In this document: piece after piece, positions 42,122-60,328 of the stretch
Layout: each line of letters opens with the position of its first letter
How positions within the stretch are numbered: position 1 is the first letter of the stretch
Assembly (NCBI GenBank): GCA_021773235.1
Contig: JAJFKL010000030.1
Coordinates: 62,001 to 126,000 of the forward strand
Reading direction: 5' to 3'
DNA: 64,000 bases
Origin: Gammaproteobacteria bacterium
GTDB taxonomy: Bacteria > Pseudomonadota > Gammaproteobacteria > Eutrophobiales > Eutrophobiaceae
Position numbers and translations under genes: made by a program
The notes under the pieces: generated by a model
What the model was told of the DNA's origin: nothing
The model's database searches: none
What the model saw: only the letters and a program-made list of their open reading frames with translations

Positions 42122-44353
42122 TTAATCAAAACGATAAGTAAAGTTCAAACCGTAAGTGCGTGGCATGCCATAGTTAAATATGTAAACACCTTGCCCACTC
42201 TGGTCAAAAGCATCGATGACATAGACTTCATCGGTCAGGTTATTCGCCCACGCAGCTAACTCCCAATGTTTGCCTTGTTGTAATGATACTCGTGTATTGA
42301 CTAACCAATAGTCATCCGACTGTATTAATGGTGTATTCTCTACTGATTTAAATGTTTCTGCCTGATACGAAGTTATTAACATCGGCGTTAATGTGAAATT
42401 ATTCGATAGCGCATACTCATAACGAATAATATTACTAAAATTGAGTTTCGGCGCATTAGGTAAATCTTTATCATTAAAACGAGAATCTTTAATCTGGTGA
42501 TCAAGCCAGCCTATATTAGTATTAATTTCCAGTTCGTCTATCGGTTGCCAAATAATATTGGAGTCCACTCCCAATACAGTTGCTTTTTCGGCATTGGTTA
42601 AACGTGAACGCTGGACAGTTGCATTAAAAGGTATAGTAACGACTTGCATTCCTCGATAATCATAATAAAAGAAAGCGCTATTAAACCCGAGCGTACGGTT
42701 AAACAAGTTTGCTTTAAATCCCAACTCATAGGCATAGAGTTCTTCTTGATCATACGGATCCAGTTGTGCCTGTGAGCTTGTTGCCAGACCACTAAAGCCA
42801 CCGCCTTTGAACCCTTTGCTGAATTTAAAATAACTTAGCAAGTTTTCCGTAGGTGTATATTCAAGGCTGATACTGCCGGTAAATGCATTAGCGGAAATAC
42901 GATTATCGCGACTATTGGAAAAAGGATTGGTAGAACCTGTTAAACCACTTGTACCACCAAAAGGAACCGTGGTTGCAGTTTTGGCAAAAAACTCTTTTTC
43001 TTCCCAGGTATAACGTGTACCAAAAACCAGTTGCCATTGCTCTGTAAATTGCCATTCATTATTGGTAAATAACGCGGCCGAAGTAGTGGACTGATCAAAA
43101 TCAACTAGCAAGACATCATTTAACCAATCTCGAAAATTAAAACGTTGGCTCGGATTACCAACACGCGTGTCATAATGATAAAAGCCACCAATTATCCAGT
43201 TTAACTTACCTGGTAATACCTCGATATTAAACGGCTTGGTCGAGGCAAGACGAACTTCCTGAGAAAACTGTTCAATAAAATAATCTGATTCAATGTGAAA
43301 TCCGACAGCAGTACTGCCATCAACATCTTCTTGTAAAGATTGATCGAAACCTTCATAGGCACTGATCGACGTGAGTTGCGTTTTGTCGAATTGCCATTCA
43401 GCATTAAGAGAAACACCATATTGATAAGATTCCTTTTCCGGTTCCAGATCCCAAGTGCCGGTAAAAGGGTCATTGTCCTTATCCTGAAAATTAAGTCTAT
43501 CTACGCACTGATTAAGGGTTTGTTGCAAATTGCCGGCTAATGCTGGCGCACACAACGTAGTCGTGCCCGGATTATAAACACCGACAGCAACCCAGTTTGT
43601 CAACGCATCGGAACCATCATGTCCACTATGTAGATTAAGCAAAAATTGATTATTTTTACTAAGTGACCAGCTTAATTGACCACGCACAGCCCACCGTGAT
43701 AATTCACCGTAGTCATTTCTGGTAAAGGTATTCTCAAAATGACCGGAAGTGCTCCAGTCGCCGGTCATCGACAAACGCCCGTTCAGATTATCAGTGATAC
43801 CACCATTAATCACCGCATCCGTACTGTAACGTTCGTAATTCCCATAACCGATAGCGACATCCGCATAAAAATCGTCTGTTGGTTTTTTACTGGTAAAATT
43901 GATATTACCCGCAGTGCTATTGCGTCCATATTCATTGCCCTGTGGACCGAGTAATGCCTCTGCCCGTTCGACATCAAATAGTTGAAAGCTCATCATTGCT
44001 GGCGACACCAATAATATTTCATCAACATAAACATTGGCGCTTTGATCATTGTTGGGAAGAGAATCGTGCAAGCCAACACCGCGAATAGTAATAACCGGAT
44101 TACTATTACCCAGAACATTCTTTATATCGACATTCGGAATGTAAATGCTGATATCAGCGGCTTGCTGTATCTGTAGTTCTTCTATTGACCGTGAGTCCAG
44201 TGAAAAGTAACTACTACCGATATTCAGCCCCGGCTGCTCTTGACCGGTGACGACTAATGTCTCAGCCGCCAAAGCGGGCAAGCCAAAAGTAAGGCTGAGC
44301 AAGGCAATAATGCCAACCATTAGCTTGGTATTTAACGAAAAAGGTTTGTTCAC
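42122..44353 (-). CDS. TonB-dependent outer-membrane receptor
   Basis: 743 residues with a signal peptide (cleavage near A-L-A-A, residue 29), a plug domain (about 35-160, with V-I-T-I-R-G-V-G and Y-V-D-E-I) and a 22-strand barrel ending in Y-R-F-D. It imports an unknown ligand using TonB. Unlike FecA-type transducers it has no N-terminal STN signalling domain. Start GTG, 10 bp after the kinase gene, so it is the third gene of the sigma-kinase-receptor operon. By sequence it belongs to the broad receptor class used for siderophores, cobalamin, sugars and other ligands; the substrate cannot be inferred. Confidence 0.9.
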   Translation of the reverse strand: MNKPFSLNTKLMVGIIALLSLTFGLPALAAETLVVTGQEQPGLNIGSSYFSLDSRSIEELQIQQAADISIYIPNVDIKNVLGNSNPVITIRGVGLHDSLPNNDQSANVYVDEILLVSPAMMSFQLFDVERAEALLGPQGNEYGRNSTAGNINFTSKKPTDDFYADVAIGYGNYERYSTDAVINGGITDNLNGRLSMTGDWSTSGHFENTFTRNDYGELSRWAVRGQLSWSLSKNNQFLLNLHSGHDGSDALTNWVAVGVYNPGTTTLCAPALAGNLQQTLNQCVDRLNFQDKDNDPFTGTWDLEPEKESYQYGVSLNAEWQFDKTQLTSISAYEGFDQSLQEDVDGSTAVGFHIESDYFIEQFSQEVRLASTKPFNIEVLPGKLNWIIGGFYHYDTRVGNPSQRFNFRDWLNDVLLVDFDQSTTSAALFTNNEWQFTEQWQLVFGTRYTWEEKEFFAKTATTVPFGGTSGLTGSTNPFSNSRDNRISANAFTGSISLEYTPTENLLSYFKFSKGFKGGGFSGLATSSQAQLDPYDQEELYAYELGFKANLFNRTLGFNSAFFYYDYRGMQVVTIPFNATVQRSRLTNAEKATVLGVDSNIIWQPIDELEINTNIGWLDHQIKDSRFNDKDLPNAPKLNFSNIIRYEYALSNNFTLTPMLITSYQAETFKSVENTPLIQSDDYWLVNTRVSLQQGKHWELAAWANNLTDEVYVIDAFDQSGQGVYIFNYGMPRTYGLNFTYRFD

Positions 44354-44363
44354 GACAGTAATA

Positions 44364-47306
44364 TTATTCTTTTTCTTGCCATTGGCTGACGATTATTTTT
44401 TCAGAACTTTCGTCATAGCTTAACGTAAATCTTTCCATTATAACAAAAAGGGTAATTAACTGGCCGAGATTGTATACACCAACCAATTCGATACTTGCGT
44501 TTACGGTATGTTGAATGCTGGGGTCAATTTCAAAATTAAATAGGCTCAGCTCATCCAGCATCAAAAAAAATTCATTGGGTATTTTTTTAACACCGGTTTC
44601 AATTTTAATGTCACGCTCGATCTCTTGTTTAAGAGACGCTGGCATGGAATCAGAATTATTAATGTATGAAAGAGGATTAGTAATTCGCAGCGGCGTCGCC
44701 GACGTAATCGATGGAAAGATATCTGGTGCGGCAACAAAAAGCGTATTACCTTCAATACCGCAAGTTACATTATAGGCCATGCAGACCAACATCAATAACT
44801 CGCGAGCTGTTAAAGGATCTTGATTTAACGTCAAGCCATCTTTACCAATGCTGACATGATGTATATAAAGATTCAGACCCAGACGGTGAGCGATATCCGA
44901 AAATAAGTTTGGTTTATCAACATCGTAGTAGTTGTATATTTCTGTATCGTCCAGACGTTCTAATGGATATTGGATATGACGCGGACTATTTTTCCCGCTA
45001 CGCTTTACCATTTCCAGTTCATTATCACGCGGAATAATAACTGCGATTGAATCATTAATCGCATTACTAAAGAACAAGCGGTTATTGCTACCTAATGTGA
45101 TTGCTGATGTTGTTTGCGTTTCCAAAGAATTTGCCGAATGTGCGAATAGTTTTTCGTGAGCCAGAATTTCAATTTCGCCTGATGTCTTATCAACACGGGT
45201 GATTGGAAAACCGGTTTCATCGCTGATATAAATATTGCCTTTATTATCGAGGCTGATATCGGTCGGTTCTAAAAATCCTTCAGCAAGCGTGGTAAGCGTG
45301 CCAGCCTTGTCCAACTTCTGTAGTCGACCTGTATGCCCCTCAATAAAATAAAGCAGGCCTTCGTTATAGGCAATGGCACGAGGGAAAGGCATGAAATTTG
45401 TTGGCGTATTAGGGCGTTTATTTTTAAATACGCTGGAAATTATCTTTTTCTCTTTATTGTTATAGCGGATGCGTTGATTAAACGCATCAGCAATAAAATA
45501 CTCATCAGCAGAGACAATATTCACATCACTGGGGTAACACAGGTCAGGGATAGTCTTAAAAAATAATTGTTCACTGCAACCGATACCTCCAAACAGTGTG
45601 GTGATGATACCGTTGGTATTGACCACGCGCAGGGCATGATTGCCACGATCAGTAATATAAAGATTACCATTCACATCAACATCCAACCCTGTTGGTTGAT
45701 TCAAGGTGGCGTCTCGAGCCGGGCCGTTATCGCCACTGTAACTTTCCTCGCCATGACCGGCCACATGTGCGATATCACCCGTTGTTAAATCGACCATCAA
45801 TACACGGTGCTGCAAAGTATCTGCAATATACAGATAGCGATCCTGAAACAGTGCTAAACCTTGTGGTGATTTAAGTGAAAAATCAGGTATTCCTGAAACA
45901 GCAATAGGCAACAAGTTGACTAGTTTAAAATCCTCTTCGCCTTGATAAGGCGTGTTTAAGGAAGCAAGTACAGTTAAGTCGAGTTGCCCAATTACTTTGC
46001 TGGCTAGCAGGCTGGTTTTGTTATTGATTTCGACCGTCGTTTGCGTTGTTCTTTCTATCAGGTATCCAACACCGGTTAACAACGCTGCACCCAGTATCAC
46101 TGGCGCAAGGTATCGGTCGATATATTTTCTATAAGGTGTTTGGCGGCTAACAGTCTGTCCAGATTGCAAACGCTTTAAATCATTTAACAAAACAGACGCC
46201 GATTGATACCGGTGCTTAGGTTGTTTTTCCAGACAGCGTAAGCATACCGTCATCAGCGCCTTATCGATATTATGTTCAAGTAAATATGTTTTCGGCACAT
46301 CTTTTTCTGAGGTGAGCTCTTTTAAGAGTTCTGGTGCGCTAAGCCCATCATAAGGTGTTACGTCAGTCAGCAAGCTATGCAGCAGCACGCCTATGCTATA
46401 GATATCACTTTGCTCACTGATCTCGCCAAAACGTTTATCCACCTGTTCAGGTGCCATATAGGCCGGTGTCCCCATTAAGTTTTGTGTGTGCGTGAGTTCA
46501 GTTGTAGCGGACATGTCCTTGGCCAAGCCAAAGTCACTGATCTTGATGTTGCTATGTTTGTCAAAAAGTATATTTGAAGGTTTAATATCCCGGTGTAAAA
46601 AACCGTTCTCATGAATAAACTCAATGGTCTTGGCTAATATCATCATGACTTCGATGATTTCATCTTGTTGTAGCGGGTCATTTACAAGACGATCATTTAA
46701 AGTACCACCATTGGCATACTCTAAAACCAGATAAGGTTGACCGTGATGTTCGCCAACGGAAAATATTTGGATAATGTTGCGGTGATGCAAGGCACCAATG
46801 GCTGTGGCCTCCATTTGGAAGCGCTTAGTCTCTGCTTCCGACATACTATCGCTAGATAACATTTTGATTGCGACTTCGCGGCCTAGAGATAAATCGTGTG
46901 CACGATAAACGACACCCATGCCGCCTCGAGCTAGTCGTTCAATTACTTTATAACCGGGAATAGATAAACCACTATTAATAGTGTCCGATAAACTATCAGG
47001 GTTAGTTGAGCTACTGGGAAGTTTTTTATCTGTAAACATGTCCGACCAAACGTCATCAATTTGAACGGTAAAATCAGGAAATCGACCAGTGTATACATCC
47101 TTGTTTATTGACTCACCGTGTTGACGACGATACGCCAGATCCTGATAGAGTAATTCTTTGAAAAGAGGTTGCTGGATATCGGGTACTGCCGACTGCAATA
47201 TTTCTTCAATCGGTATAGCTTGTTTACTATTTAGTGCCTGTTCGTATTGTGTACAGTATTTATCAATCTGAATGAGTTGTGAAGTATTGAGTTCTTTAAA
47301 TACCAT
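44364..47306 (-). CDS. membrane Ser/Thr protein kinase with NHL propeller and STN-like C-terminus
   Basis: 980 residues. Domains in order: N-terminal helical region (1-110); Hanks-type kinase (about 118-380) with A-R-G-G-M-G-V-V-Y, Lys148, H-R-D-I-K-P-S-N (Asp240) and D-F-G (258-260), all catalytic residues present; one transmembrane helix (about 398-417); six or so NHL repeats in the periplasm (about 475-775, such as P-T-G-L-D-V-D-V-N-G-N-L-Y-I-T-D); a secretin/TonB N-terminal (STN)-like domain (about 799-860); and a second similar segment (about 905-975). The kinase-TM-NHL order recalls PknD of Mycobacterium; the STN end is unusual. It starts 20 bp after the sigma gene. Confidence 0.88.
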   Translation of the reverse strand: MVFKELNTSQLIQIDKYCTQYEQALNSKQAIPIEEILQSAVPDIQQPLFKELLYQDLAYRRQHGESINKDVYTGRFPDFTVQIDDVWSDMFTDKKLPSSSTNPDSLSDTINSGLSIPGYKVIERLARGGMGVVYRAHDLSLGREVAIKMLSSDSMSEAETKRFQMEATAIGALHHRNIIQIFSVGEHHGQPYLVLEYANGGTLNDRLVNDPLQQDEIIEVMMILAKTIEFIHENGFLHRDIKPSNILFDKHSNIKISDFGLAKDMSATTELTHTQNLMGTPAYMAPEQVDKRFGEISEQSDIYSIGVLLHSLLTDVTPYDGLSAPELLKELTSEKDVPKTYLLEHNIDKALMTVCLRCLEKQPKHRYQSASVLLNDLKRLQSGQTVSRQTPYRKYIDRYLAPVILGAALLTGVGYLIERTTQTTVEINNKTSLLASKVIGQLDLTVLASLNTPYQGEEDFKLVNLLPIAVSGIPDFSLKSPQGLALFQDRYLYIADTLQHRVLMVDLTTGDIAHVAGHGEESYSGDNGPARDATLNQPTGLDVDVNGNLYITDRGNHALRVVNTNGIITTLFGGIGCSEQLFFKTIPDLCYPSDVNIVSADEYFIADAFNQRIRYNNKEKKIISSVFKNKRPNTPTNFMPFPRAIAYNEGLLYFIEGHTGRLQKLDKAGTLTTLAEGFLEPTDISLDNKGNIYISDETGFPITRVDKTSGEIEILAHEKLFAHSANSLETQTTSAITLGSNNRLFFSNAINDSIAVIIPRDNELEMVKRSGKNSPRHIQYPLERLDDTEIYNYYDVDKPNLFSDIAHRLGLNLYIHHVSIGKDGLTLNQDPLTARELLMLVCMAYNVTCGIEGNTLFVAAPDIFPSITSATPLRITNPLSYINNSDSMPASLKQEIERDIKIETGVKKIPNEFFLMLDELSLFNFEIDPSIQHTVNASIELVGVYNLGQLITLFVIMERFTLSYDESSEKIIVSQWQEKE

Positions 47307-47325
47307 AACATTTACGTCTTACTTT

Positions 47326-47922
47326 TTAATTCTGTCCTTCATCCAGAGCATCAACCAGCAAAGAACGGATAACAGTGAGACGCCGCTGCACGGTACGCAA
47401 GTTGGTATTAAGTTCCTGGGCAATCTCCGCACTGGAATAACCTTCCATCTTGCGTAAGGCAATAAGCCGCATTTCATCATCCAGTAAACGCTCATTGAGT
47501 TGGCGGTATTCATCGGTAATGGCTAATACAAATTCCGGCGTTGGTTCTGAGCCGATGAGTTCTTCAACTGGCATGGCGTCATGATGAAATTTTCCTGCCT
47601 CCCCTTGTCGTTTGTTTCGAGATTCATAACGTATTTGTTTAATAGCTTTTCGGGCAGTCAAAGTGACAAGTAGGCGCCAAATTTCATCTTCGCTCTGTAA
47701 TTTCGGTGCGCGGTTGTTATCTAGGCCACGGAAAAAACTCTTAAAGGCGGAAACAACCACATCTTCTTCATCGGCCATTGTACGGGTTGAACCAGACAAG
47801 CGTTTATAGGCGATCTTAATCATTTTCTGATAGTAACGTTGCCACAGGTCTTCGGCGGCGACATGATCCCCTGCCTGTAAACGACCTATCCAGCTATCCA
47901 TCACAATGGCATTGTCGTTCAA
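47326..47922 (-). CDS. ECF-type RNA polymerase sigma factor
   Basis: 198 residues. Region 2 is seen in D-L-W-Q-R-Y-Y and D-E-E-D-V-V-V-S-A-F-K-S-F-F-R-G, and region 4 in M-E-G-Y-S-S-A-E-I-A-Q-E-L-N and R-T-V-Q-R-R-L. The D-E-E-D-V-V form resembles the ECF group common in Planctomycetes, where such factors pair with Ser/Thr kinases. TTG 47922 is chosen because GAGGAAA lies 6 nt upstream; TTG 47937 and ATG 47901 are alternatives. First gene of the operon. No FecR-type anti-sigma gene adjoins it. Confidence 0.85.
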   Translation of the reverse strand: MNDNAIVMDSWIGRLQAGDHVAAEDLWQRYYQKMIKIAYKRLSGSTRTMADEEDVVVSAFKSFFRGLDNNRAPKLQSEDEIWRLLVTLTARKAIKQIRYESRNKRQGEAGKFHHDAMPVEELIGSEPTPEFVLAITDEYRQLNERLLDDEMRLIALRKMEGYSSAEIAQELNTNLRTVQRRLTVIRSLLVDALDEGQN

Positions 47923-47937: not shown

Positions 47938-48170
47938 AAAAAATCCCGTTTCGTGTCGTCATTTTTGAAATAAAGCTATATCAGTCAATAAGGGGTGAGT
48001 TAACCCGGATTGTATAACGAATCGACTTATGGCTGGGCGTATTTTTAATTGATGTTGCGGTAGGTAAAACAGACAAACGATGTTAATCACAAAGTTTGCA
48101 GTCAGAATTTCGTGAATACATAGACAAGATATGTAAATAAGAATGAATCGAATAAGACCATAAGAGAATT
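47938..48170. promoter_or_regulatory. divergent control region of the sigma-kinase-receptor and lectin operons
   Basis: About 230 bp between the ECF gene (minus) and the hemopexin-repeat gene (plus) must contain both promoters. No confident -35/-10 pair could be assigned by eye. An ECF-type promoter read by the local sigma factor is expected but unproven. Confidence 0.4.
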
Positions 48171-48941
48171 ATGAATCAGGCAGATGTAGCGCAACACTAT
48201 TACAGGGTTTCCAATTGGGAATTGTTTTCCATTGTCATACTTCTTGTGTCAAATATTTGGGTGCCGAATGCGCATGCAGCTGATTCTAAATCGACTGAAA
48301 TTGCGGAATTGTTCTTTAACACGCCGATAAGTGCTGCGATTACATTGGAAAGTGGTGTCACTTACCTTTTTTCAGGCAGGACTTACGCAAAAACAAATAA
48401 AGATTCTAAAGCAGGTTTTGCTAAAGGTTATCCCAAGATACTGCCCGGTGGCTGGAAAGGCTTTCCCAGAGTTTGGCCAGGGATTAGTGCGGGTTTTTCC
48501 GAAAAGGGTAAAACCTTATATATGTTTAGTGGTAAGGACAAATTTGGCAAAGAAACGTACTACCAACTGACAGACATTAAGGTCGATAAGGGTTATCCCA
48601 AGGAAATCACCGATGATTGGATAATGCTGCCTAAAGGATGGAGTAAAGGGGAACTCGCCGTAGTTGACGCCGCATTCTATCACGCACCAACCAAAAAACA
48701 TTACATGTTCAAAGACAATCAATATGCGCGATTGAAAGATCTTGCTATCGAGAAGGCGTATCCGAAAAAACTACCCGGGATCTGGAAAGGTATGCCCAAG
48801 AATTTTGCCAAAGGTATTGATGCAGCAACTTTTCGTAATGGTCATATTTATATGTTTAAAGACGATGAATATATCCGTTTTACAAAAACAAAAATGGATA
48901 AAGGCTATCCCAAAAAGATTAAAGACAATTGGCCTAATTAA
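48171..48941 (+). CDS. secreted hemopexin-repeat protein
   Basis: 256 residues with a signal sequence (hydrophobic 19-33, cleavage near N-A-H-A, residue 36). The mature part is four hemopexin-like repeats forming one four-bladed propeller. Each repeat has the pattern Ala-Ala-x-x ... Y-M-F-K-D-x-x-Y-x-R ... K-G-Y-P-K-x-(L/I) ... W-x-G-(M/F)-P, most clearly at about 160-200 and 207-250. Bacterial hemopexin-like proteins bind diverse ligands and are not necessarily heme proteins. Ribosome site AAGAGAA precedes the ATG. The giant protein gene follows 47 bp later. Confidence 0.85.
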   Translation: MNQADVAQHYYRVSNWELFSIVILLVSNIWVPNAHAADSKSTEIAELFFNTPISAAITLESGVTYLFSGRTYAKTNKDSKAGFAKGYPKILPGGWKGFPRVWPGISAGFSEKGKTLYMFSGKDKFGKETYYQLTDIKVDKGYPKEITDDWIMLPKGWSKGELAVVDAAFYHAPTKKHYMFKDNQYARLKDLAIEKAYPKKLPGIWKGMPKNFAKGIDAATFRNGHIYMFKDDEYIRFTKTKMDKGYPKKIKDNWPN

Positions 48942-48988
48942 CCAACGACATTGAATTATCAAAAATAACTTAAAGTGAAATCAGGATT

Positions 48989-51900
48989 ATGAATAGACAA
49001 ATAAAGCAAACTATTTTTCTGTGTGCATTATCAATATTAAATATTAATACGGCTTTTGCAGGCGATACTGAAAGTGGTTGGACATCTTCAACGACGCCCA
49101 CCGAGGGACCAACATCTGGTATCAATATAGGTGATCACAGGAATACAACAGGTTGGTCTGAAGATAAAAAGAAGAGCTGGGCCAAGAGAAAGGTGGCTTA
49201 TGTTCTGAAACTACTTGCCGGTGCAGGAAAAAACCCAACAGATAAATGGGCACCAAAAAAATTCTCGGGCACTTCGACTTCGATTGGTTTTGAAGTTGCA
49301 ATACCCGGAACTGACTTTGATGTTTCCACATTTTATACCCGTTCCGGATCTCCCATTGAAGAAACCTGGCATGTTGCCCTTAGTCTGGATACTACCAAAC
49401 TCAAGAGCTCTCCCCTTACATCGGTCTATCAAGATATTACTGCGATTTTAGGTACACCAGAATATGAAAGCCTAGTCCTTGTCACCAGTGAAGGTAGTGG
49501 CAAGGTTAATGTTGCTGATCTACCTGCCAATCTGAAGACAGTATTAGATCCGTTTAAAGGCAATAAAGCGGCTAACAACACAAAAACTAAAGTAATCAGT
49601 CTTGCCAAAGGCGTTAACTTTTTTGCCACGATCAAACCACCCGAAGATGGCCCGTTTAAAGTGATGGAGCAAGCCCTGTTATTGGGCGGTAAAGTCAGCG
49701 ATGGGTCTTTGCACTTGACTGGATCAGTCGGCTACGATCTGCTCGGTAAGTTGATGGATGATGGCAAGCTTGAGGCGGATAAAACGGCACAACAAACGGC
49801 ACAAACAGAAGTCAATGCAAGCAAGGAGGATAAAACTATTCCTCCTGTCGCCCTGAAGATTATATTTCCTTCCGTGATTCCTGCTCCGTTTAGCCTGATG
49901 GATGCGACTCAGGCAAAGAAAACATTTTTTATGGAGATTGATAAAACAGTCCTTGGCATTAAATATGATAAGGCCTCTAACAATCTCGCATTAGACGCGG
50001 GTCAGGATGTCACGCTTTGGATTAACAAAGAAGATTATACCACCAAGCGTAAGATCTCCTTCTCGAAAGATAAGTCTGATCCAAACGATAGTGCTTATGA
50101 GTTAAAAGCCACTGGCTCAGTAGAAGATATGAACGTTACGCTGTTTGAAGGCTTTACGCTGGAAAAACTGAGTCTGAACGGTAGCACCAAAGTCAATTTC
50201 AAAACACCTGCACCGGAAGGCGAAGAAACCACCTGGCAAACCGGCAGTGTGAGTGATGATGCCACACGCAATGGCGGTATTCAGATCGGTGGCAATCGTG
50301 AAACGACTAAGGCAGAAACCGATAGCTGGCAAGCAGCTAAACCAAGTACCGATGCAAAACGAACTGACGTTGCGATAGGCGAGCATCGTAATACCGGCTC
50401 TGAGAAGAAAAAAGCAACCGAGTTAAAGATCGTTTTTGGCGTTACTGTTAATTCAACTGATGTCGGCGATCTAACTGGCGCGCTTGGTTTAACCACGATT
50501 AAGGAAGGGGCTTCCAAACCACGCGTCAAAGAAGTGTTCATGCAATTTGATGGTGACGCTAAAGTTGGCGGATTGAATTTGGCAGATATAAGGCCCCTAA
50601 GAAATATTCCCATCGTCAATGAAATTGCGATCAATGGACTAGGGATTGGCATGAGTGAAACAGCCGGAAATAGTGAGGGCCTGGATTTTTATCTCTACAG
50701 TGGTCTTACCTGGACCAAGCCCGATATTAAAGGGCAGTTGGCGGTGATGAAACGGGGCAGAGATTTTTATGTAATGTCGCGCGTTACTGATTTCTCCGAT
50801 AAAAAAGTTGTTGATACCTTACCCGGTTCAGAGGCACTCGATGCATTCTCTGGACCTTTAGAGTCATTTGAAATGCCAAATGCGATGTTGGTGTTTAGTA
50901 CTGCAGCGGGAGATAGCGGTCGAGGTGGTGCATTAAACCTGAGTGATCTTCCTACTCAAATACAAACTATGTTTAATGGCATTGTGGGTAGTAGTGGCAA
51001 GGTGCCTCTCTATGGCGATGGTATCAGTATTATTGCTGGAATTGACCTTAGCAAAGATGAGAATCTGAAAAATGCAGTCGCCGATTTAGGTATTAGTACT
51101 TCCAGTCCATTAGTCATGGGTGGGTCGCTTGGTGGCTTTGAATCGGGCAAGATTAAAGTCGCCTTTTTTCTGGATATCCCCACGATCGAGTTTCCCAAAA
51201 AGAATGACAAAGACCATGAAATGAATGATCTGATCAGTGTTAATAATGCCGGTGGACAGTTTTTCATTAGTATCGATGCGGTTGGCCCTGTCTTTAAAAC
51301 AGGCATACGAGCCAATGTAGAAATGTCGTTGCCACGTGTTGGTGGGGAAGGAAAAGAACCCGATATTGTTGCTGTGGGCGGTGATTTTTACCTGAACATT
51401 GACGCAGTCGGTGTCGGAGTGCGGTTCGCAGGTTATGTAAACGGCGATTGGCATGACCCGCTCGGCTTTGAAGGTATTACATTAAAAGAAACAGCAATAT
51501 TAGTCGGAACAGATGTCAGCGGTGGTGTTGAGATAGGTCTTGGCACGACATTGAGTTTTGCATTGGTCGATGATAAAGGTAAGGCGAAAGCGGTCAAGAC
51601 AAACGATTTTAAGAAGGTCTTTGATAAAGGTGAATTGGAAGCACGTCTGAAAGAACTGCAGGCGCAAATGGCAACTGGCGAAGTTGAAACTAAAGAGGTT
51701 GATATTAGTGCTGGTTTTATCATTGCAATTAATACGACACCCGCACTGGGTATCCCCGTACCTAAAAAACTGGGCATGGCCTTTAAGAATAGTGAAATTT
51801 CTTTGCCTAATACCATTGATATCTTTGACTTGTTTCTGAAAGGATTAATGACGGGGCCTGCACAACAGGAATTGTTAGAGAGCACCCCTAAAGGTAGTCC

Positions 51901-54900
51901 ACAACGAGAAGTATTAAACGTTTTGATAGATGGTTTCAACGACGGGAAGTGGGTGCCTGCATCACAGAAGGTACAGATGGTTGCTCCTGTGCCCTTAGAT
52001 GTTATTTATTTTAAAAATGTCGACATATTCTTTGCCACACCGGGTGCAATCTTGCCTGGCTATGCGGCGCTTGATGGCAATATTGGTTTGCGTTTAGGTG
52101 GCGAACTCTGGGTCACTGATCTAGAAGGTAAGAATGATAAAAAGGTAGTTGACGCGGTTATTGACTTAACATTAAACGGCCTTGATTTCGGCAAGTTTGC
52201 TAAGGATCTGGAAAAAACTTATTTATCTATTGCCTCGGTCACAATAGATCCGCTTAGGGAAGAATTGAATTGTCCGAAAGGCGCCTTTTATGATGTTGGC
52301 TTGGCTTCGTGTTGGTCCTGTCCCAAAGATTATAAACGAACATTAGCGGCAGTAACGGCAGATAATGCCTGTAAGCAAACGATTTTTCACCATAGCAAGG
52401 CAAAGTTCGAACAAGATGCAAACCTGGCATGGAATTGCCCAACAGGGACATTTTATGATGCGCGAAATCAGGGTGAGTGCTGGTCGTGTCCTGTTGGTTA
52501 TTCTCGAGGTCTAACAGCCGTTGATCATGACAAGGCCTGTTACAACGTCGATTTAAGCAAGGTAACGAGTTATGCAAAAGCCACCAAAAAGAAAAAGGCA
52601 ACCGGTTTGATAGGGACGGATTGTCCGGCTGGACAGTTCTGGCATTTTGATAACGGCTATTGTTATAGCTGTCCAAGCAAGCATGTTCGAACAGGAACCG
52701 CGATTGGTAGTAACAAGGCTTGTATGGCTGTAGGGGCACAATCTATCACTGGTGAAGAGCCTGCGACCTTAGTTAAACCAGGTCGACCCGAAGGTAGTTT
52801 TCTTGATATTGGCAAAGGTAAATTCTATTCCTGCCCTGAAGGTTATAAACGAACCGTTTTTGCGGTTGACGATAAAAAAGGTAGAGCCTGTCAGAAAGTC
52901 GAGGTGAATTTGGCCAATGGTAAAAGTGAGCCACGTGGACAGATCAAGACTAAACCTGCAAAGAACAAATTATGCTTTGGCGCAGAGGATAATGATCTCT
53001 CTATAGGTGATAACGTCGTTATGCAGCCTTGTTACGATGAGGATAGCCGTTTCCAAAGTTGGTATCTCGATAGTCTGAATAGGTTGCGACCGTTGCAGCA
53101 GTTAAGCCTGAAAAAAGATAAGGGTGCGCCGATGTGTCTGGAAATCGAATATACAGTAAGCGACGAAGACGCCAACGTACACATAGCTGCAAGCGACAGC
53201 GGTAGCAATGTACAGATAGGAAAATGCAGTTTTTATAAAGAGGATAATCTCGCTGGAGTTCAATGGTATGTCGATCAAAAAGATCGCATCGTTAACAAGC
53301 AGAACAGTAAATGTCTTAATTTCAAGAGCAAGGAGAAAAACCTGGAGATCTGGGACTGTCTCGACAAGGGCAATCAGTTCTGGGAATTTGGCGATAATAT
53401 CGTAAAACCAAAAGATATCGCCAAAGCAGAAAACGGCCCAATCATGCTGACGACCTCAGGTGAACGGGAGCTTTGTCTACAAACTGCTAAGCCGGTAAAG
53501 AATGGTAATGCTGTAGAAATGGATAGCTGTGGTGGTGAGCAAAATCAGGTTTGGTATTGGAACGCGAAAGGCCAGGTTACGGATGAGAGCAAAAAGCTTT
53601 GTCTGGATATCGAAAAAGATGCCGATGATTCACCTTTGACAGTAGCGACTTGTCGAAGCATGGATGATTTGACGAACGTTGATTCACAAAGATGGTTGGC
53701 CGATACCAATGGGCGGGTTGCCAATGATCTAGGACGTTGTATCGATTTTGCTGATGGTAAAACCGAAGGCAAAAACGCAACTGTCATTATTGGGCAATGT
53801 AAGGATAGTGCCGCCGCAAATCAATTACTTGAAATGATGGATGCGCCTAAAGAGAGTATCGTCGTAAAAGCAAAAGAGATGACCAAAGAATGGCGCGAAA
53901 AAATGACAGCGGCGCAGGAAAAAACGAGTCAAGATGCCGGTAATTTGTTTGCAGGAATTTTGGATCCCGATTCAATGGTGCATACCGTTGCCACTAAACA
54001 GAAGAAAGGCACTGGCCTATTAAAAACAAATTGTCCAAAGGCAACCAAGGATAAAGACGCACAGTTTTGGGATGCAATCGATGGCGGTAACTGTTGGTCG
54101 TGCCCAAATAAATTTACTCGTACCGGGCATTCCGTGAAGAGTGATAAGGCATGTATCGGCAAGAAGTCGGATGCAGGTGAATTGATTGCCTCTGGTGAGG
54201 AGATATCCATTTCTTGGAAAAAGATTCCGGGTGCTGCTACAGATATCGCGATTGGTTCCATCGGTGATGTTTGGGTGGTCAACACGAAGGGGCAAGTCAA
54301 GTATCGTGATTTAGTGAAGAATAAGTGGTCTGCGAGTCAAAAAGGGAATGTAGAAAAGGTTGCGGTTGGTAAGAACAGTGATGTCTGGCTGCTGAATAAA
54401 TCAAACGAAATTTTCCGCGGTGGTGTAAACGGTTGGAAAAAAATTAAAGGCGGCTTAGCCGATATTGCCGCAGGTCCTAATGGTGCGGTCTGGGGCATTG
54501 GTAAAACAAAAAAACATGATAATGGTAATTACATTTATAAATGGAGTGGTAAAAAATGGGTCAAGCAAAAAGGTCATGCTGTTCAGATTGCCGTCACTCC
54601 AAAGGGACAAGTTTGGGTTGTCAGCGCTAAAGGTAAAATTTATAGCGGCAACGGTAAAAAATGGAAATTGAGACCCGGTTTAGCAAAGGAAGTTGCCATC
54701 GGTGCTGATGGTTCCGTATGGCGCTTGAGCGAAGATGATAGCCATGCCAATGGCAGCACGATATATCGATGGAATGTTGATGGTAGCAATTGGGAACTGA
54801 TGAAAGGTCATGCGACTTCTCTGGCAATTGCGCCAAGCGGTATGCCTTGGGTCACATCTAAGGTTAACAAAATCTATGATGGCAATCCGAAACGAAAGAA

Positions 54901-55711
54901 AACACCTAAGTTGGCTTCTGTCTGTGCATCGGGTTATCAGAGAGATATTTTGAAAAAAGAAACAGCAGACGATGCGTGTTTCAAGAAAGTGTTTAAAGCA
55001 GCAACAAAAAACTCTAAGCCGGTTATCTGTCCTGCTGGCCAGGAAAAACAATTAGTCGGTAACTGGAAAAATTATTGTGTTAGTTGTCCTACTGGGTTTA
55101 GCCGCGACCTATTGCACTTTGAGGCGAGCACGGCTGGTGCCTGTTTCAAAGTGAATAAGACGAGTGCAGTTTATAAAACAGTTGAAATACCTGAACGCTG
55201 GGATTCATGCCCGAGTGGCTATAAGAAAGATCCTAATAAATCATGTTTCAAATGTCCGACAGGATATGGTCGAAATGCAAACCCGGTAGGCCATGCCAAG
55301 GCTTGTACCAAGTGGCCCGATCCATTCAAAACTTCCAAAGCGACTATACATTCTAAAAAATGGGGATCATGCGCAAAGGGTTACAACAAAGACTTAAATG
55401 GTAATTGTTGGAAATGCCCTGCTGGGACGAAGAGAGATAAGTTGGTTGGAATAAAATCAGGAGCCAAAGCCTGTGTCATCCCTGCAGCAAGTGATACAGA
55501 GAAAGTCGCGGCTGCCAAACACAGTGGTGCGGGGAAGGCGAGTTGCCCAACAGGTAAGGGTAAATTCCAACATCTGTTGCCGTTACCAAAGGATTGGTTC
55601 TTACATTGTGGCGCTTGTCCTTCTGGATACGCGCGTAACGCGAATGATGTTTCTGGCGCGAAGGCATGTGACAAGATAGTTCGGACTGGCACGACGAAGG
55701 CATTGCGATGA
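48989..55711 (+). CDS. giant secreted multi-domain protein with Cys-rich, ricin-lectin and tectonin modules
   Basis: 2240 residues with a signal peptide (cleavage after A-F-A, residue 24). Layout: a beta-rich N-terminal half (about 30-1085) with two or more copies of a repeated domain and the recurring motif I-(N/Q)-I-G-x-x-R-(N/E)-T near 47, 430 and 460; Cys-rich repeats of the form C-P-x-G-x-F ... C-W-S-C-P ... A-C (about 1094-1300); two ricin B-type beta-trefoil lectin regions (about 1323-1617, with Q-x-W segments); another Cys repeat (about 1682); tectonin-like propeller repeats (about 1741-1963, W-K-K-I-x-G-x-A-x-D-I-A-I-G); and five further Cys-rich repeats (about 1976-2236). No catalytic domain was recognised. 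Probably a surface or secreted carbohydrate-binding protein. Confidence 0.85.
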   Translation: MNRQIKQTIFLCALSILNINTAFAGDTESGWTSSTTPTEGPTSGINIGDHRNTTGWSEDKKKSWAKRKVAYVLKLLAGAGKNPTDKWAPKKFSGTSTSIGFEVAIPGTDFDVSTFYTRSGSPIEETWHVALSLDTTKLKSSPLTSVYQDITAILGTPEYESLVLVTSEGSGKVNVADLPANLKTVLDPFKGNKAANNTKTKVISLAKGVNFFATIKPPEDGPFKVMEQALLLGGKVSDGSLHLTGSVGYDLLGKLMDDGKLEADKTAQQTAQTEVNASKEDKTIPPVALKIIFPSVIPAPFSLMDATQAKKTFFMEIDKTVLGIKYDKASNNLALDAGQDVTLWINKEDYTTKRKISFSKDKSDPNDSAYELKATGSVEDMNVTLFEGFTLEKLSLNGSTKVNFKTPAPEGEETTWQTGSVSDDATRNGGIQIGGNRETTKAETDSWQAAKPSTDAKRTDVAIGEHRNTGSEKKKATELKIVFGVTVNSTDVGDLTGALGLTTIKEGASKPRVKEVFMQFDGDAKVGGLNLADIRPLRNIPIVNEIAINGLGIGMSETAGNSEGLDFYLYSGLTWTKPDIKGQLAVMKRGRDFYVMSRVTDFSDKKVVDTLPGSEALDAFSGPLESFEMPNAMLVFSTAAGDSGRGGALNLSDLPTQIQTMFNGIVGSSGKVPLYGDGISIIAGIDLSKDENLKNAVADLGISTSSPLVMGGSLGGFESGKIKVAFFLDIPTIEFPKKNDKDHEMNDLISVNNAGGQFFISIDAVGPVFKTGIRANVEMSLPRVGGEGKEPDIVAVGGDFYLNIDAVGVGVRFAGYVNGDWHDPLGFEGITLKETAILVGTDVSGGVEIGLGTTLSFALVDDKGKAKAVKTNDFKKVFDKGELEARLKELQAQMATGEVETKEVDISAGFIIAINTTPALGIPVPKKLGMAFKNSEISLPNTIDIFDLFLKGLMTGPAQQELLESTPKGSPQREVLNVLIDGFNDGKWVPASQKVQMVAPVPLDVIYFKNVDIFFATPGAILPGYAALDGNIGLRLGGELWVTDLEGKNDKKVVDAVIDLTLNGLDFGKFAKDLEKTYLSIASVTIDPLREELNCPKGAFYDVGLASCWSCPKDYKRTLAAVTADNACKQTIFHHSKAKFEQDANLAWNCPTGTFYDARNQGECWSCPVGYSRGLTAVDHDKACYNVDLSKVTSYAKATKKKKATGLIGTDCPAGQFWHFDNGYCYSCPSKHVRTGTAIGSNKACMAVGAQSITGEEPATLVKPGRPEGSFLDIGKGKFYSCPEGYKRTVFAVDDKKGRACQKVEVNLANGKSEPRGQIKTKPAKNKLCFGAEDNDLSIGDNVVMQPCYDEDSRFQSWYLDSLNRLRPLQQLSLKKDKGAPMCLEIEYTVSDEDANVHIAASDSGSNVQIGKCSFYKEDNLAGVQWYVDQKDRIVNKQNSKCLNFKSKEKNLEIWDCLDKGNQFWEFGDNIVKPKDIAKAENGPIMLTTSGERELCLQTAKPVKNGNAVEMDSCGGEQNQVWYWNAKGQVTDESKKLCLDIEKDADDSPLTVATCRSMDDLTNVDSQRWLADTNGRVANDLGRCIDFADGKTEGKNATVIIGQCKDSAAANQLLEMMDAPKESIVVKAKEMTKEWREKMTAAQEKTSQDAGNLFAGILDPDSMVHTVATKQKKGTGLLKTNCPKATKDKDAQFWDAIDGGNCWSCPNKFTRTGHSVKSDKACIGKKSDAGELIASGEEISISWKKIPGAATDIAIGSIGDVWVVNTKGQVKYRDLVKNKWSASQKGNVEKVAVGKNSDVWLLNKSNEIFRGGVNGWKKIKGGLADIAAGPNGAVWGIGKTKKHDNGNYIYKWSGKKWVKQKGHAVQIAVTPKGQVWVVSAKGKIYSGNGKKWKLRPGLAKEVAIGADGSVWRLSEDDSHANGSTIYRWNVDGSNWELMKGHATSLAIAPSGMPWVTSKVNKIYDGNPKRKKTPKLASVCASGYQRDILKKETADDACFKKVFKAATKNSKPVICPAGQEKQLVGNWKNYCVSCPTGFSRDLLHFEASTAGACFKVNKTSAVYKTVEIPERWDSCPSGYKKDPNKSCFKCPTGYGRNANPVGHAKACTKWPDPFKTSKATIHSKKWGSCAKGYNKDLNGNCWKCPAGTKRDKLVGIKSGAKACVIPAASDTEKVAAAKHSGAGKASCPTGKGKFQHLLPLPKDWFLHCGACPSGYARNANDVSGAKACDKIVRTGTTKALR

Positions 55712-55766
55712 TGAACTTTGTTAAATTAGCTCAAAAATTACAATTAGAAAAGATGGGGAAACGATA

Positions 55767-57881
55767 ATGTTTGTAGAAAAAAAAATCAGCATGAAAATGT
55801 TGATGGGGGTTTCATCATTCTGTCTGGTGCTGACGCTAGGGGGATGTGTTCATAACGAGGATAAGCCCTCAAGCATGATAAACCAAAGTGGTGAGTATTT
55901 AACCTCTATCGATCTGCAAGGTGCGGCCCTAACAGACTCGGCGATTGATGACTACGCAACGCAAGCAATTGAAGCCATGCGGGCGGGAAAACTTCAGGAA
56001 GCCACAAAAAAATTTAATACCGCACTTAACAAGAACTTTAGCAGCTCATCACTACAGCTTTTGAATGGCATTAACTATCATTTGCGTGCTATTGGTGGCG
56101 ATAACGGATTGTTTGAGATGGCAGAACAGGGATATCTTGCTGCAATACGTTTCGATAAGAGTAATTGGACTGCTCGTTATTATTTGGGCATGTTTTATAT
56201 GGATACAAAACGTTATATGGATGCGCAACGTGAGTTTGGTGCCTATGTTGTCAATAACGATAGCGATCCGGAAGCGCTTTACTATCTTGCCAGAGCTTCT
56301 TACTACAGTGCAGATCCGGTGACTGCACACGCCGCTGCAATGCGACTTTGGGATCTAATGGAAACGCTTGATAGTTCGTCCATTGACTCAACTGAGATGT
56401 TACGACTGTTGGCAATGACTAAAGCGGCAGTTAATAAACCTGAAGAAGCCTCGAATCTGGTTGATGATTATCTTGCAAAGGGTGGTGAGGTAGACCACGC
56501 GGCCATGTTGCGCAAACGTCTCGGAGATTGGCGACATGTCTATGCCCAAAAAAGTGTTAATGCAAAACAGGAAGAGGCGCCAGCAGATGAGATGAAAGCA
56601 GCGATGGCAGCGGCAGATGAGGCTGTTGATTCAGAGATGGATGAGATGTCGGGTATGGAAGAATCAGATGGCATGTCAGAAACGGGCGAGATGATCGGCA
56701 TGGACGAGTCTGACGAGATGTCTGATATGGAAGAATCCGATGAGATGACCGCAATGGACGAATCAGAGAACGAAGAAGAAGCGGATAGTGAAGATGACGA
56801 ATTTGTTGAAAGTCAGATGGTCGCTGTGGATGTGGTTATCATCCGATCAGAAGAAATAGAGACGGAAGCTAAAGGTATTAATTTGCTAAATAGCCTACAG
56901 CTTCAATTTGGTGATCCGCAAAATGGTGTCAATGCATATAACTATGCAAAGACAAGAACTAGAGAAGCAACACTTGAAGGAACTGAAACACTCGATTTTT
57001 TAGACCCTGCAAATCCTACTGTACCTAGAATAGTGCCTGAAATAACAGAATTAACAAAAACACTCACCGATCTTAACCCGACTACAAAGTCGATCACCCG
57101 ATTAATCAGTATCCCTGCTGTTAGTTACACTTTGAACATATTAAATGAGCAGGGTGGTCGTAGTGAAGTGCTTGCACGCCCCACTCTGGTAGCTCGAGCA
57201 GGTCAAACCTCTGAATTTTTCTCAGGAGTGGAGGTCTCGGCTGCTGCAGTTTCGGGGGGCGCAGGTGATTCGGTATCAATCGAAAAAGAAATAGGTTTGA
57301 AACTGGCCATCACACCGGAATTAGGTTCTGACGGTGTTGTGCTATTACACGTGATTGCCGAAAGAACATTTTTAACGCAACCGAGTCGGTCGGTTGTTTT
57401 TGAGTTTCGTCTTGATACAACGAAGACATTGGTTGATGCGAATGTCGCAATGAGGTTTGGACAGACTTTAATTCTCAGTGGTTTGAATGAGCGTATTACA
57501 GAAAGTAACAATGATGGAGTTCCTGTGCTTAAGGAAACGCCCTTTATAAAACGATTTTTTTCTGAGGAAAGTTTATTAACTCAGAAGCGTTCAGTAATTA
57601 TATTACTCACACCGCGTCCGGCTTCCTACCTTTATAATAACCCTGGCACAGGTTTAACGACTGTGGGTGATCTCCATCCCAGATCTGAGATCAATCAACT
57701 GAATGAACGTTATGAAAGTTGGTTTAAACCCCTGTCTAATGCACAAACGGTTTTGGATGGCATATCGACCGGGAATTTGTATAAATATTTTCAAAGCAGG
57801 GATATTCCGGCGGATGCCTGGTATAGGAGTGATTCACATCCATTGCGGATGCGTGAAAATATTAAGCAGCTTTCAATCTAG
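55767..57881 (+). CDS. TPR-secretin outer-membrane lipoprotein
   Basis: 704 residues: lipoprotein signal (L-G-G-C, Cys27), TPR-like helices (about 60-260), a highly acidic Met/Asp/Glu/Ser-rich stretch (about 269-350), and a secretin core (about 356-640). The core is marked by E-V-L-A-R-P-T-L-V-A, the V-P-V-L-K-E-T-P-F-I-K-R-F-F gate-region motif and the terminal I-I-L-L-T-P. Secretins form outer-membrane channels in type II, III and pilus systems. No gsp or pil genes are in the window, so this looks like a free-standing pore for the secreted proteins beside it. It lies 55 bp after the giant gene. Confidence 0.85.
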   Translation: MFVEKKISMKMLMGVSSFCLVLTLGGCVHNEDKPSSMINQSGEYLTSIDLQGAALTDSAIDDYATQAIEAMRAGKLQEATKKFNTALNKNFSSSSLQLLNGINYHLRAIGGDNGLFEMAEQGYLAAIRFDKSNWTARYYLGMFYMDTKRYMDAQREFGAYVVNNDSDPEALYYLARASYYSADPVTAHAAAMRLWDLMETLDSSSIDSTEMLRLLAMTKAAVNKPEEASNLVDDYLAKGGEVDHAAMLRKRLGDWRHVYAQKSVNAKQEEAPADEMKAAMAAADEAVDSEMDEMSGMEESDGMSETGEMIGMDESDEMSDMEESDEMTAMDESENEEEADSEDDEFVESQMVAVDVVIIRSEEIETEAKGINLLNSLQLQFGDPQNGVNAYNYAKTRTREATLEGTETLDFLDPANPTVPRIVPEITELTKTLTDLNPTTKSITRLISIPAVSYTLNILNEQGGRSEVLARPTLVARAGQTSEFFSGVEVSAAAVSGGAGDSVSIEKEIGLKLAITPELGSDGVVLLHVIAERTFLTQPSRSVVFEFRLDTTKTLVDANVAMRFGQTLILSGLNERITESNNDGVPVLKETPFIKRFFSEESLLTQKRSVIILLTPRPASYLYNNPGTGLTTVGDLHPRSEINQLNERYESWFKPLSNAQTVLDGISTGNLYKYFQSRDIPADAWYRSDSHPLRMRENIKQLSI

Positions 57882-57904
57882 ATCGAATTCATTATTCAAT
57901 ATCT

Positions 57905-60328
57905 ATGATTTCCAGTTTAGAAATTAAACAGCACAGAAGCCAATTCTACAAATTTACAATTTGTTTATTGATGTGCTTTTTCTCTGTATCCATTTTCGCA
58001 GCTGAATCTAAACCATCAAAGGCAGTGCAATTTGATTGGACCAAAGTCCGTGGACAAGCTCAGGACATTGCTGTCGGCGCAAATGGAGAGATCTTTGTTG
58101 TCGCTGATGACAATGTTGTTTGGCGCTGGCGCCGTGAAGGTAGCGGTTGGAGTCGTCGTTCTGGTTTAATTCAACGGATTGCCGTTGATCCGAAAGGCAG
58201 TCATTGGGGAGTTGCCGAAGACGGACGGACATATCGTATGAGTGGACTGTGGTGGCGCCAGATTGATGGGCTTGCCCAGGATATTGCTATTGGTGGTGAC
58301 GGTACCATCATAAAAACAAACCAGGATGATTCACTTGCGCGCTGGGACAAATTTAGTGGACGTTGGAAGCTCATTACAGGATCGGGTAAACGGATTGCCG
58401 TAGGACCAAAGGGTAAGCCGTGGGTTGTAAAAGCCGATGGTAGTTTGGCGCGTTACGATGGACGTGAATGGCAAACATTACCCGGTCACGCAACCGACAT
58501 TGCAATTGGACCCAAAGGCAGCGTTTTTATTATCGACGCAGACGGACTACGCCAATGGGACAAGAAAGAAAGCCGATGGTTAGATGTGCCTGATACCACA
58601 GGTGGTATCGCTATCTCAGTAGGTATGGGAGAACACCCCTGGTACGTTGATACGACAGGTGCCATCTACGCTTCTTCACTTTTTTCGATTGATGATAACG
58701 AAACGGATACGACAGAGGCTGATGCCGTGACCTTTGTTGTTCCGGAGGCTGAAAAAGCCGAGTCTGAAGAGATTCTGGCCATACGACGCAGTAATAGTGC
58801 TGTCGATGATGATCCTGCTGCGATTACCAGTGATGAGCCAATTGTTTTTAAGAAAGTGAAAGGAACGGCTATTGATCTGGCGATTGGTGTCGAAGGCAGT
58901 GTCTTTGCTCTGCACTCTGACAGTGTAATATCTCGTTGGAATAATCAACGATCCATCTTTCAAAAATTTCCCGGGACGCTTATTCGTCTGGCTGTCGGCC
59001 CGGATGGATTGCCACTGGGTATTAATCTCAGTCGAGATATTTTCCGCCACGATGGCAAGGATTGGAAAAATATTAAAGGAAAGGCAGAAGATATTGCTGT
59101 TGGTGCCGATGGTACTGTGATCATTAGCGATTCTGACGAACGCTTGTTACAGTTAAATAGTGCAATGACGCGTTTCGAGCTTATTTCCGGGAAGAAGGGT
59201 AATAAACTAGCGGTAACGCCCGATGGTTCTCCTTGGGTAATCCGAAAGGATGCTTCAATCTTTCGTTGTGATACCGATCCCTGTACAAAGCTTAAACGCA
59301 AAGGGCGTGATATTGCGATTGGTCCCGATGGTAGTGTGTTTATGATTTCGACGCGCAATCAGTTATTTGTTTTTGATGATACTGAAGCGGATTGGCAACG
59401 CTTACTGATAAGTAAAAAGCCGATTGCCATTGCTGTTGGCCCACAAGGTCGGCCCTGGTTTGCAGACATAAAAAACGATGTGTATGCATCAACATTCTTC
59501 GAACGTGATGAAAGTAATGACACGGCGATTGCCAGAACAACGAATAAACCCACCGAGGTTAGTTCATCGTTGATTCCAACGACTTCTAAAAGTACATTTA
59601 CGTTTACCAAGAGGTTGAAATTTAAGGAAGTCACCATCGGCACCGCGACCACTGATAATATCGGTATTGGTCTTGATGGTTCAGTGTTTATTGTTGCTGA
59701 TAGTGGTTCTAGGCTTCAAAGGTATAACGAGAAATCTAAAGCTTTTGAAGATATATTTACACCTGTTAACAATGTAGATGCAATCACATCTGATGCAGAA
59801 GGTCGAGTCTGGACAATTGATTTTACTGAAGTACGGTTCCAAAAGAAAAAAGATGGTAGTTCATTTACTACGTATTCTTTACCCACTGCTGCGTTTGCTC
59901 AATCTCCCGACATAGATATTGGTGGCGATGGCAGTGTCTTTGCTGTTTGGATAACCGGCGAGCTGTATAAATTTAATCCATCAAAGAAGAAGTTTGAGAA
60001 ATTTACTTCAGGCACATTTCGGCGTGCCGCTGTCGGTGTTGATGGACGACCCTGGGTTATCGATGAGAGTACTTTTGTGGTGATGGAATATGATGGCACC
60101 AAGTTTATTAAGCCAGGAGGTATAACCCAAAAAGCGCGCAATATTGGTATTGGTGCGGGCGGTACCGTTTATATTGTGGACTCAGACAGTAAGTTGAGGA
60201 AATGGAATGCAACTAACAAGTCCTTTGATAAGGTTGATGTAACGGCAACTCATGTCGCGGTAGACCCGGATGGTCGTCCTTGGTACTTGAATACCGGTGC
60301 TACTGGAAATGCTTTTAGGGCACGATAA
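57905..60328 (+). CDS. secreted triple tectonin beta-propeller protein
   Basis: 807 residues with a signal peptide (hydrophobic 17-31, cleavage near I-F-A). Three sets of tectonin-type repeats fill about 45-260, 315-535 and 573-807. Each blade has a variant of W-x-x-(I/V)-x-G-x-A-x-D-I-A-(I/V)-G followed by G-x-x-(F/W). Tectonins bind sugars and lipopolysaccharide in lower eukaryotes and some bacteria. The gene begins 23 bp after the secretin gene, closing the plus-strand group. No enzymatic motif is seen. Confidence 0.85.
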   Translation: MISSLEIKQHRSQFYKFTICLLMCFFSVSIFAAESKPSKAVQFDWTKVRGQAQDIAVGANGEIFVVADDNVVWRWRREGSGWSRRSGLIQRIAVDPKGSHWGVAEDGRTYRMSGLWWRQIDGLAQDIAIGGDGTIIKTNQDDSLARWDKFSGRWKLITGSGKRIAVGPKGKPWVVKADGSLARYDGREWQTLPGHATDIAIGPKGSVFIIDADGLRQWDKKESRWLDVPDTTGGIAISVGMGEHPWYVDTTGAIYASSLFSIDDNETDTTEADAVTFVVPEAEKAESEEILAIRRSNSAVDDDPAAITSDEPIVFKKVKGTAIDLAIGVEGSVFALHSDSVISRWNNQRSIFQKFPGTLIRLAVGPDGLPLGINLSRDIFRHDGKDWKNIKGKAEDIAVGADGTVIISDSDERLLQLNSAMTRFELISGKKGNKLAVTPDGSPWVIRKDASIFRCDTDPCTKLKRKGRDIAIGPDGSVFMISTRNQLFVFDDTEADWQRLLISKKPIAIAVGPQGRPWFADIKNDVYASTFFERDESNDTAIARTTNKPTEVSSSLIPTTSKSTFTFTKRLKFKEVTIGTATTDNIGIGLDGSVFIVADSGSRLQRYNEKSKAFEDIFTPVNNVDAITSDAEGRVWTIDFTEVRFQKKKDGSSFTTYSLPTAAFAQSPDIDIGGDGSVFAVWITGELYKFNPSKKKFEKFTSGTFRRAAVGVDGRPWVIDESTFVVMEYDGTKFIKPGGITQKARNIGIGAGGTVYIVDSDSKLRKWNATNKSFDKVDVTATHVAVDPDGRPWYLNTGATGNAFRAR

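Follow-up and report, generated by a model that had tools for sequence, protein, structure and literature searches.

A rare ECF sigma factor–transmembrane Ser/Thr kinase pair, here followed by a TonB-dependent receptor gene, is a new variant of the known ECF–kinase pairs

The window, a stretch of 64,000 nucleotides from contig JAJFKL010000030.1 of a Gammaproteobacteria bacterium (assembly GCA_021773235.1, 2.87 Mb, 81% complete), contains three ORFs on the minus strand in the order ECF sigma factor, membrane kinase and TonB-dependent receptor, with about 20 bases between the first two genes and about 10 between the last two (Table 1). A preliminary description of this DNA had given the same order and had placed the kinase in the position of FecR, and both were confirmed; Pfam found no match to the FecR family (PF04773) in the kinase, a point on which the locus departs from the Fec type. 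The expectation that no FecR gene stands beside the sigma factor also held, since none was found near the locus, and the two weak FecR-domain matches elsewhere in this incomplete genome are not of Fec type. Similarly, the ORF list contains no separate anti-sigma gene adjoining the sigma factor or the kinase. The literature search found no described system of this make-up, in agreement with the preliminary description, which bounds the novelty of the arrangement and is no proof of it.

Table 1. Positions of the genes and predicted elements in the window.
Feature	Position	Strand	Basis
TonB-dependent receptor: signal peptide, plug and barrel, without N-terminal signalling domain	42122..44353	-	ORF list, Pfam, NCBIfam
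Transmembrane Hanks Ser/Thr kinase, 980 aa	44364..47306	-	ORF list, Pfam, alignment
Second STN/N0-like domain of kinase (putative), residues 899-974, weaker support	44385..44612	-	model, VIA-align
First STN/secretin-N0-like domain of kinase (putative), residues 791-862	44721..44936	-	model, Foldseek, VIA-align
NHL beta-propeller of kinase, predicted periplasmic, about residues 478-760	45027..45875	-	Pfam, model, fold match
Predicted single membrane helix of kinase, residues 399-417	46056..46112	-	hydrophobicity by eye, alignment
Kinase domain, residues 119-373	46188..46952	-	Pfam, ortholog alignment
ECF sigma factor, PF07638 type, DEED in region 2.2	47326..47922	-	ORF list, Pfam, alignment
Candidate ECF promoter ATAGCTTT-N13-CGACA before sigma gene	47954..47979	-	common to both orthologs' leaders
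Divergent cluster: hemopexin-repeat protein, 2240-aa ricin-B-lectin/tectonin protein, TPR-secretin, tectonin-propeller protein	48171..60328	+	ORF list, Pfam

The sigma factor matched PF07638 (Sigma70_ECF, E 1e-35 in Pfam), and its most likely start is the TTG at 47922, which follows a GAGGAA Shine-Dalgarno sequence; the extension of the ORF to 47937 is disfavoured. Its region 2.2 reads DEEDVVVSAF in all three sigma orthologs aligned, and the other gammaproteobacterial PF07638 sigma factors sampled are mostly uncharged and threonine-bearing there, in the form LQATALVNEA. That an adjoining kinase can control a sigma factor is already known from ECF43, whose members rely on an uncharged, threonine-bearing region 2.2 motif (PMC8999054, PMC13147305). 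The ECF43 pairs EcfP-PknT of Vibrio parahaemolyticus and EcfK-PknS of Xanthomonas citri resemble the present one in that an ECF gene adjoins the gene of a transmembrane Hanks kinase with a periplasmic sensor end, an adjacency seen at 3/3 loci here. They differ in region 2.2, which is the charge-poor QTTA in ECF43 and DEED here, and the present kinase has other periplasmic domains and a receptor gene behind it. A region 2.2 of the QTTA type, without the acidic DxxD and with a phospho-acceptor threonine, was found in none of the three orthologs. Thus, the sigma factor falls outside the definition of ECF43, and the ECF43 phospho-switch on the QTTA threonine is inapplicable to it. Candidate phosphorylation sites, numbered on the ORF from 47937, are Thr133 in the linker, a position held by Ser or Thr in each of the three orthologs, and Ser63 and Ser67 within region 2.2. 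Four planctomycete ECF groups with kinases have been described, and the groups other than ECF43 keep the acidic motif (PMC8999054). The motif found here is compatible with those of the planctomycete groups ECF59, 61, 62 and 217, which also have a kinase neighbour (PMC8999054), whereas the hosts here are Gammaproteobacteria.

The kinase gave a Pkinase match of 8e-56 together with NHL repeats in Pfam. The residues Lys148, Asp240, Asn245 and the DFG motif at 258-260 were found to be invariant in the alignment of the three kinase orthologs, and Pfam reported no known anti-sigma domain in the N-terminal 112 residues. The PADLOC matches of the kinase were generic kinase-domain matches only and were set aside. 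The NHL repeats that had been placed in the periplasmic end were borne out by the Pfam repeats and by the model, in which the propeller was well folded and matched NHL propellers, including that of Mycobacterium tuberculosis PknD, a transmembrane Ser/Thr kinase that carries its NHL propeller outside the cytoplasm. With a membrane helix located by eye, the predicted topology is that of a PknD-like NHL-propeller receptor kinase. To our knowledge, PknD has neither STN domains nor an adjoining ECF partner of this type.

The nature of the region behind the propeller was investigated at the level of both sequence and fold. No STN family was reported in the kinase by Pfam or NCBIfam, a PDB sequence search with the STN-like region returned nothing relevant, and profile–profile comparison of both STN-like regions with the STN domains of FecR and of receptors from an Exilibacterium genome did not rise above column-shuffled controls. 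When the C-terminal 221 residues were modelled by AlphaFold2 on a two-sequence alignment, the mean pLDDT was only 53, and the strand-helix-strand-strand-helix-strand-strand pattern was clear once and less clear a second time. In Foldseek against the PDB, secretin N0 domains came out on top and 4m0h, a FecR-like anti-sigma factor, was seventh; none of the matches reached E 0.001. VIA-align gave Z 8.6 with the GspD N0 domain (rmsd 2.0 over 75 residues), 8.1 with 4m0n (rmsd 2.3 over 74 residues), 7.3 with PupR (rmsd 2.6 over 72 residues), 6.9 with FpvA and 6.4 with FecA; a Z near 8 can arise from a common arrangement, and similar scores were obtained for phage baseplate proteins, so these values support the fold and not a function. 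The fold matches of the second domain were 7muc_AD, 6x62_Ad and 9ki1_G. When the periplasmic part was modelled in full, the propeller folded and the STN part did not (pLDDT about 30 there). The weak model thus hints at an STN-like fold in the C-terminal region. The STN-like end proposed in the preliminary description stood as a fold match but not in the sequence profiles; the fold resembles that of PupR, although secretin N0 domains are at least as close to it as FecR and PupR are.

Orthologous sigma–kinase pairs were found in two distant Cellvibrionaceae, with identities of 64 and 58% for the sigma factor and 42 and 49% for the kinase. One is in an Exilibacterium MAG (L079), recovered by a scan of GTDB contigs, and the other in a genome of the same family (G456). 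In both, the sigma gene is followed directly by the gene of a full-length kinase, which has NHL repeats and shares the C-terminal region, and the adjacency is therefore kept in three genomes of two orders. The pair is thus real and maintained in two distant relatives. Its surroundings are different at each locus. At the Exilibacterium locus, a convergent amidase lies downstream of the pair and no output gene follows in the same direction. An autotransporter-type repeat protein is encoded there divergently from the sigma gene, and a receptor 25% identical to that of the window is found further off on the other strand; the G456 pair is followed by TpsA/TpsB. The distribution of the pair is narrow. 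The sigma factor was absent from eleven genomes of the same genus and from the rest of the family (53 genomes searched), where PF07638 matches were far weaker. No further pair was found in samples of the class (369, PF07638), of the order of Exilibacterium (391) and of the phylum (398), and the PF07638 matches of the class sample had no tblastn match to the sigma factor of the window. A search of genome contigs with the kinase as the first query gave no match, viral contigs held no relatives, and plasmids gave only weak matches to ECF factors and kinases in general, none of them related to the pair. We regard the sigma–kinase pair as a rare new variant of the known ECF–kinase pairs.

The receptor consists of Plug and TonB_dep_Rec barrel domains in Pfam, and neither Pfam nor NCBIfam reported an N-terminal STN or signalling domain; the Plug begins at residue 48, directly after the signal peptide. 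In the taxonomic family of the host, the receptors that match it best share only 33-36% identity with it, and the 1.5 kb fetched to either side of them gave no match to a kinase or sigma factor. Neither orthologous pair adjoins a receptor, a further departure from the Fec type, and of the gene order expected in relatives only the sigma–kinase part was conserved. Because it carries no signalling domain and is missing beside the other pairs, the receptor is read as an output and not as a signal-giver, contrary to the FecA-like role first assigned to it.

The leaders of the sigma genes were compared for a common element. The arrangement ATAGCTTT-N13/14-YGACA was present in 3/3 leaders, and 0/3000 shuffles gave such a shared dyad, a test that describes the likeness of the leaders and is not an independent prediction, since the element was derived from the same sequences. 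It lies 57-58 bases ahead of the start codon in two leaders and 183 bases ahead of the assumed start at the Exilibacterium locus. A 10-mer shared by two sigma leaders, TTACCTACCG, was dropped as it is missing from the third. The element is rare genome-wide. Its three matches in the source genome lie before the sigma gene in sense, within the sigma gene in antisense and, wrongly oriented, at a GGDEF/EAL gene, and the matches in the relatives are at background except for the sigma and tpsA sites. In G456, two more copies precede tpsA, one on each strand. These tpsA copies (L102:16916-17013) face each other and form an imperfect inverted repeat. A copy before a Porin_7 gene of Exilibacterium (L108:1501-1525) may be a regulon member or chance.

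On balance, we consider it rather probable that the pair is a self-regulated ECF sigma–Ser/Thr kinase module whose envelope outputs are interchangeable and include the receptor. In such a module, the periplasmic propeller and N0/STN-type domains would let the kinase sense a ligand or a cue from the envelope, and the kinase would control the neighbouring sigma factor directly, most likely by phosphorylation, as the ECF43 precedent suggests. The active sigma factor would transcribe its own operon from ATAGCTTT-N13-CGACA, and the surface gene wired behind the pair, the receptor here and the TpsA/TpsB exoprotein system in a relative, would be co-transcribed. As an output, the receptor might serve in uptake and in indirect feedback, and would not be the signal-giving partner. 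This reading is favoured by the adjacency of the pair in three genomes, the invariant catalytic residues, the element shared by the sigma leaders and the precedents of EcfP-PknT and EcfK-PknS. Against it stand the DEED motif, which leaves the ECF43 switch inapplicable, the small number of examples (three, one with a receptor), the distant element and missing output gene at the Exilibacterium locus, and a divergent secretin cluster without the element. Tentatively, one may also propose a new type of transmembrane signalling, in which a Hanks kinase uses tandem N0/STN domains to monitor an outer-membrane machine or receptor and activates an uncharacterised type of DEED-bearing ECF sigma factor, phosphorylation replacing the anti-sigma step of FecR.

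Other explanations were weighed against the self-regulated module. The locus shares with FecI-FecR-FecA and PupI-PupR-PupB the order of sigma factor, single-pass membrane regulator and receptor, and, going by the weak model, a regulator whose periplasmic end has an STN-type fold. Together with the operon-like spacing and the fold likeness to PupR and to the signalling domains of FpvA and FecA, this would fit a loaded receptor that touches the STN domains of the kinase in the periplasm, upon which the kinase phosphorylates the sigma factor. However, PupB contacts PupR through its N-terminal signalling domain, both PupR subdomains being required (PMC7186176), and that part is missing from the present receptor; a kinase replaces FecR, the receptor is not conserved with the pair, and it is secretin N0 domains that match the fold best. 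We therefore consider signalling of this kind unlikely, and the FecI-FecR-FecA interpretation, right in its anatomy, is mostly unsupported as a whole. It is just as improbable that the kinase works as a classical anti-sigma factor and keeps the sigma factor bound, with its kinase activity serving another substrate or the release only. The retained DEED core-binding motif, by which the sigma factor may be active unless held, and the lack of an adjoining anti-sigma gene would suit such a role, but the N-terminal part has no reported anti-sigma domain and the catalytic residues are fully conserved. Least probable of all is a receptor that is an accidental neighbour, functionally unconnected with the pair. 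Its absence beside the other two pairs and its isolated family matches point that way, whereas it lies on the same strand only 10 bases behind the kinase, the element before the sigma gene likely promotes all three genes, and a simple promoter scan gave promoter-like sites no more often than in shuffles.

The kinase-linked ECF groups besides ECF43 are without a worked-out mechanism according to a 2022 review (PMC8999054). The compact pair described here keeps the acidic core-binding motif, offers candidates for a shared promoter and for outputs, and would make kinase control of DEED-type sigma factors directly testable. In its kinase, the NHL propeller is joined to the putative N0/STN fold, both being linked to known partners in signalling or in the outer membrane, which suggests that STN-type folds have been recruited into kinases.

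The cluster divergent from the sigma gene contains no good copy of the element, and its link to the sigma factor is putative. It has the look of a system dedicated to exporting a giant exoprotein, and the domain of its secretin (55767-57881) matched PilQ/GspD models at scores well below the cut-offs. The source genome as a whole gave 19 kinase-domain matches, some of them clustered (contigs C33 and C36).
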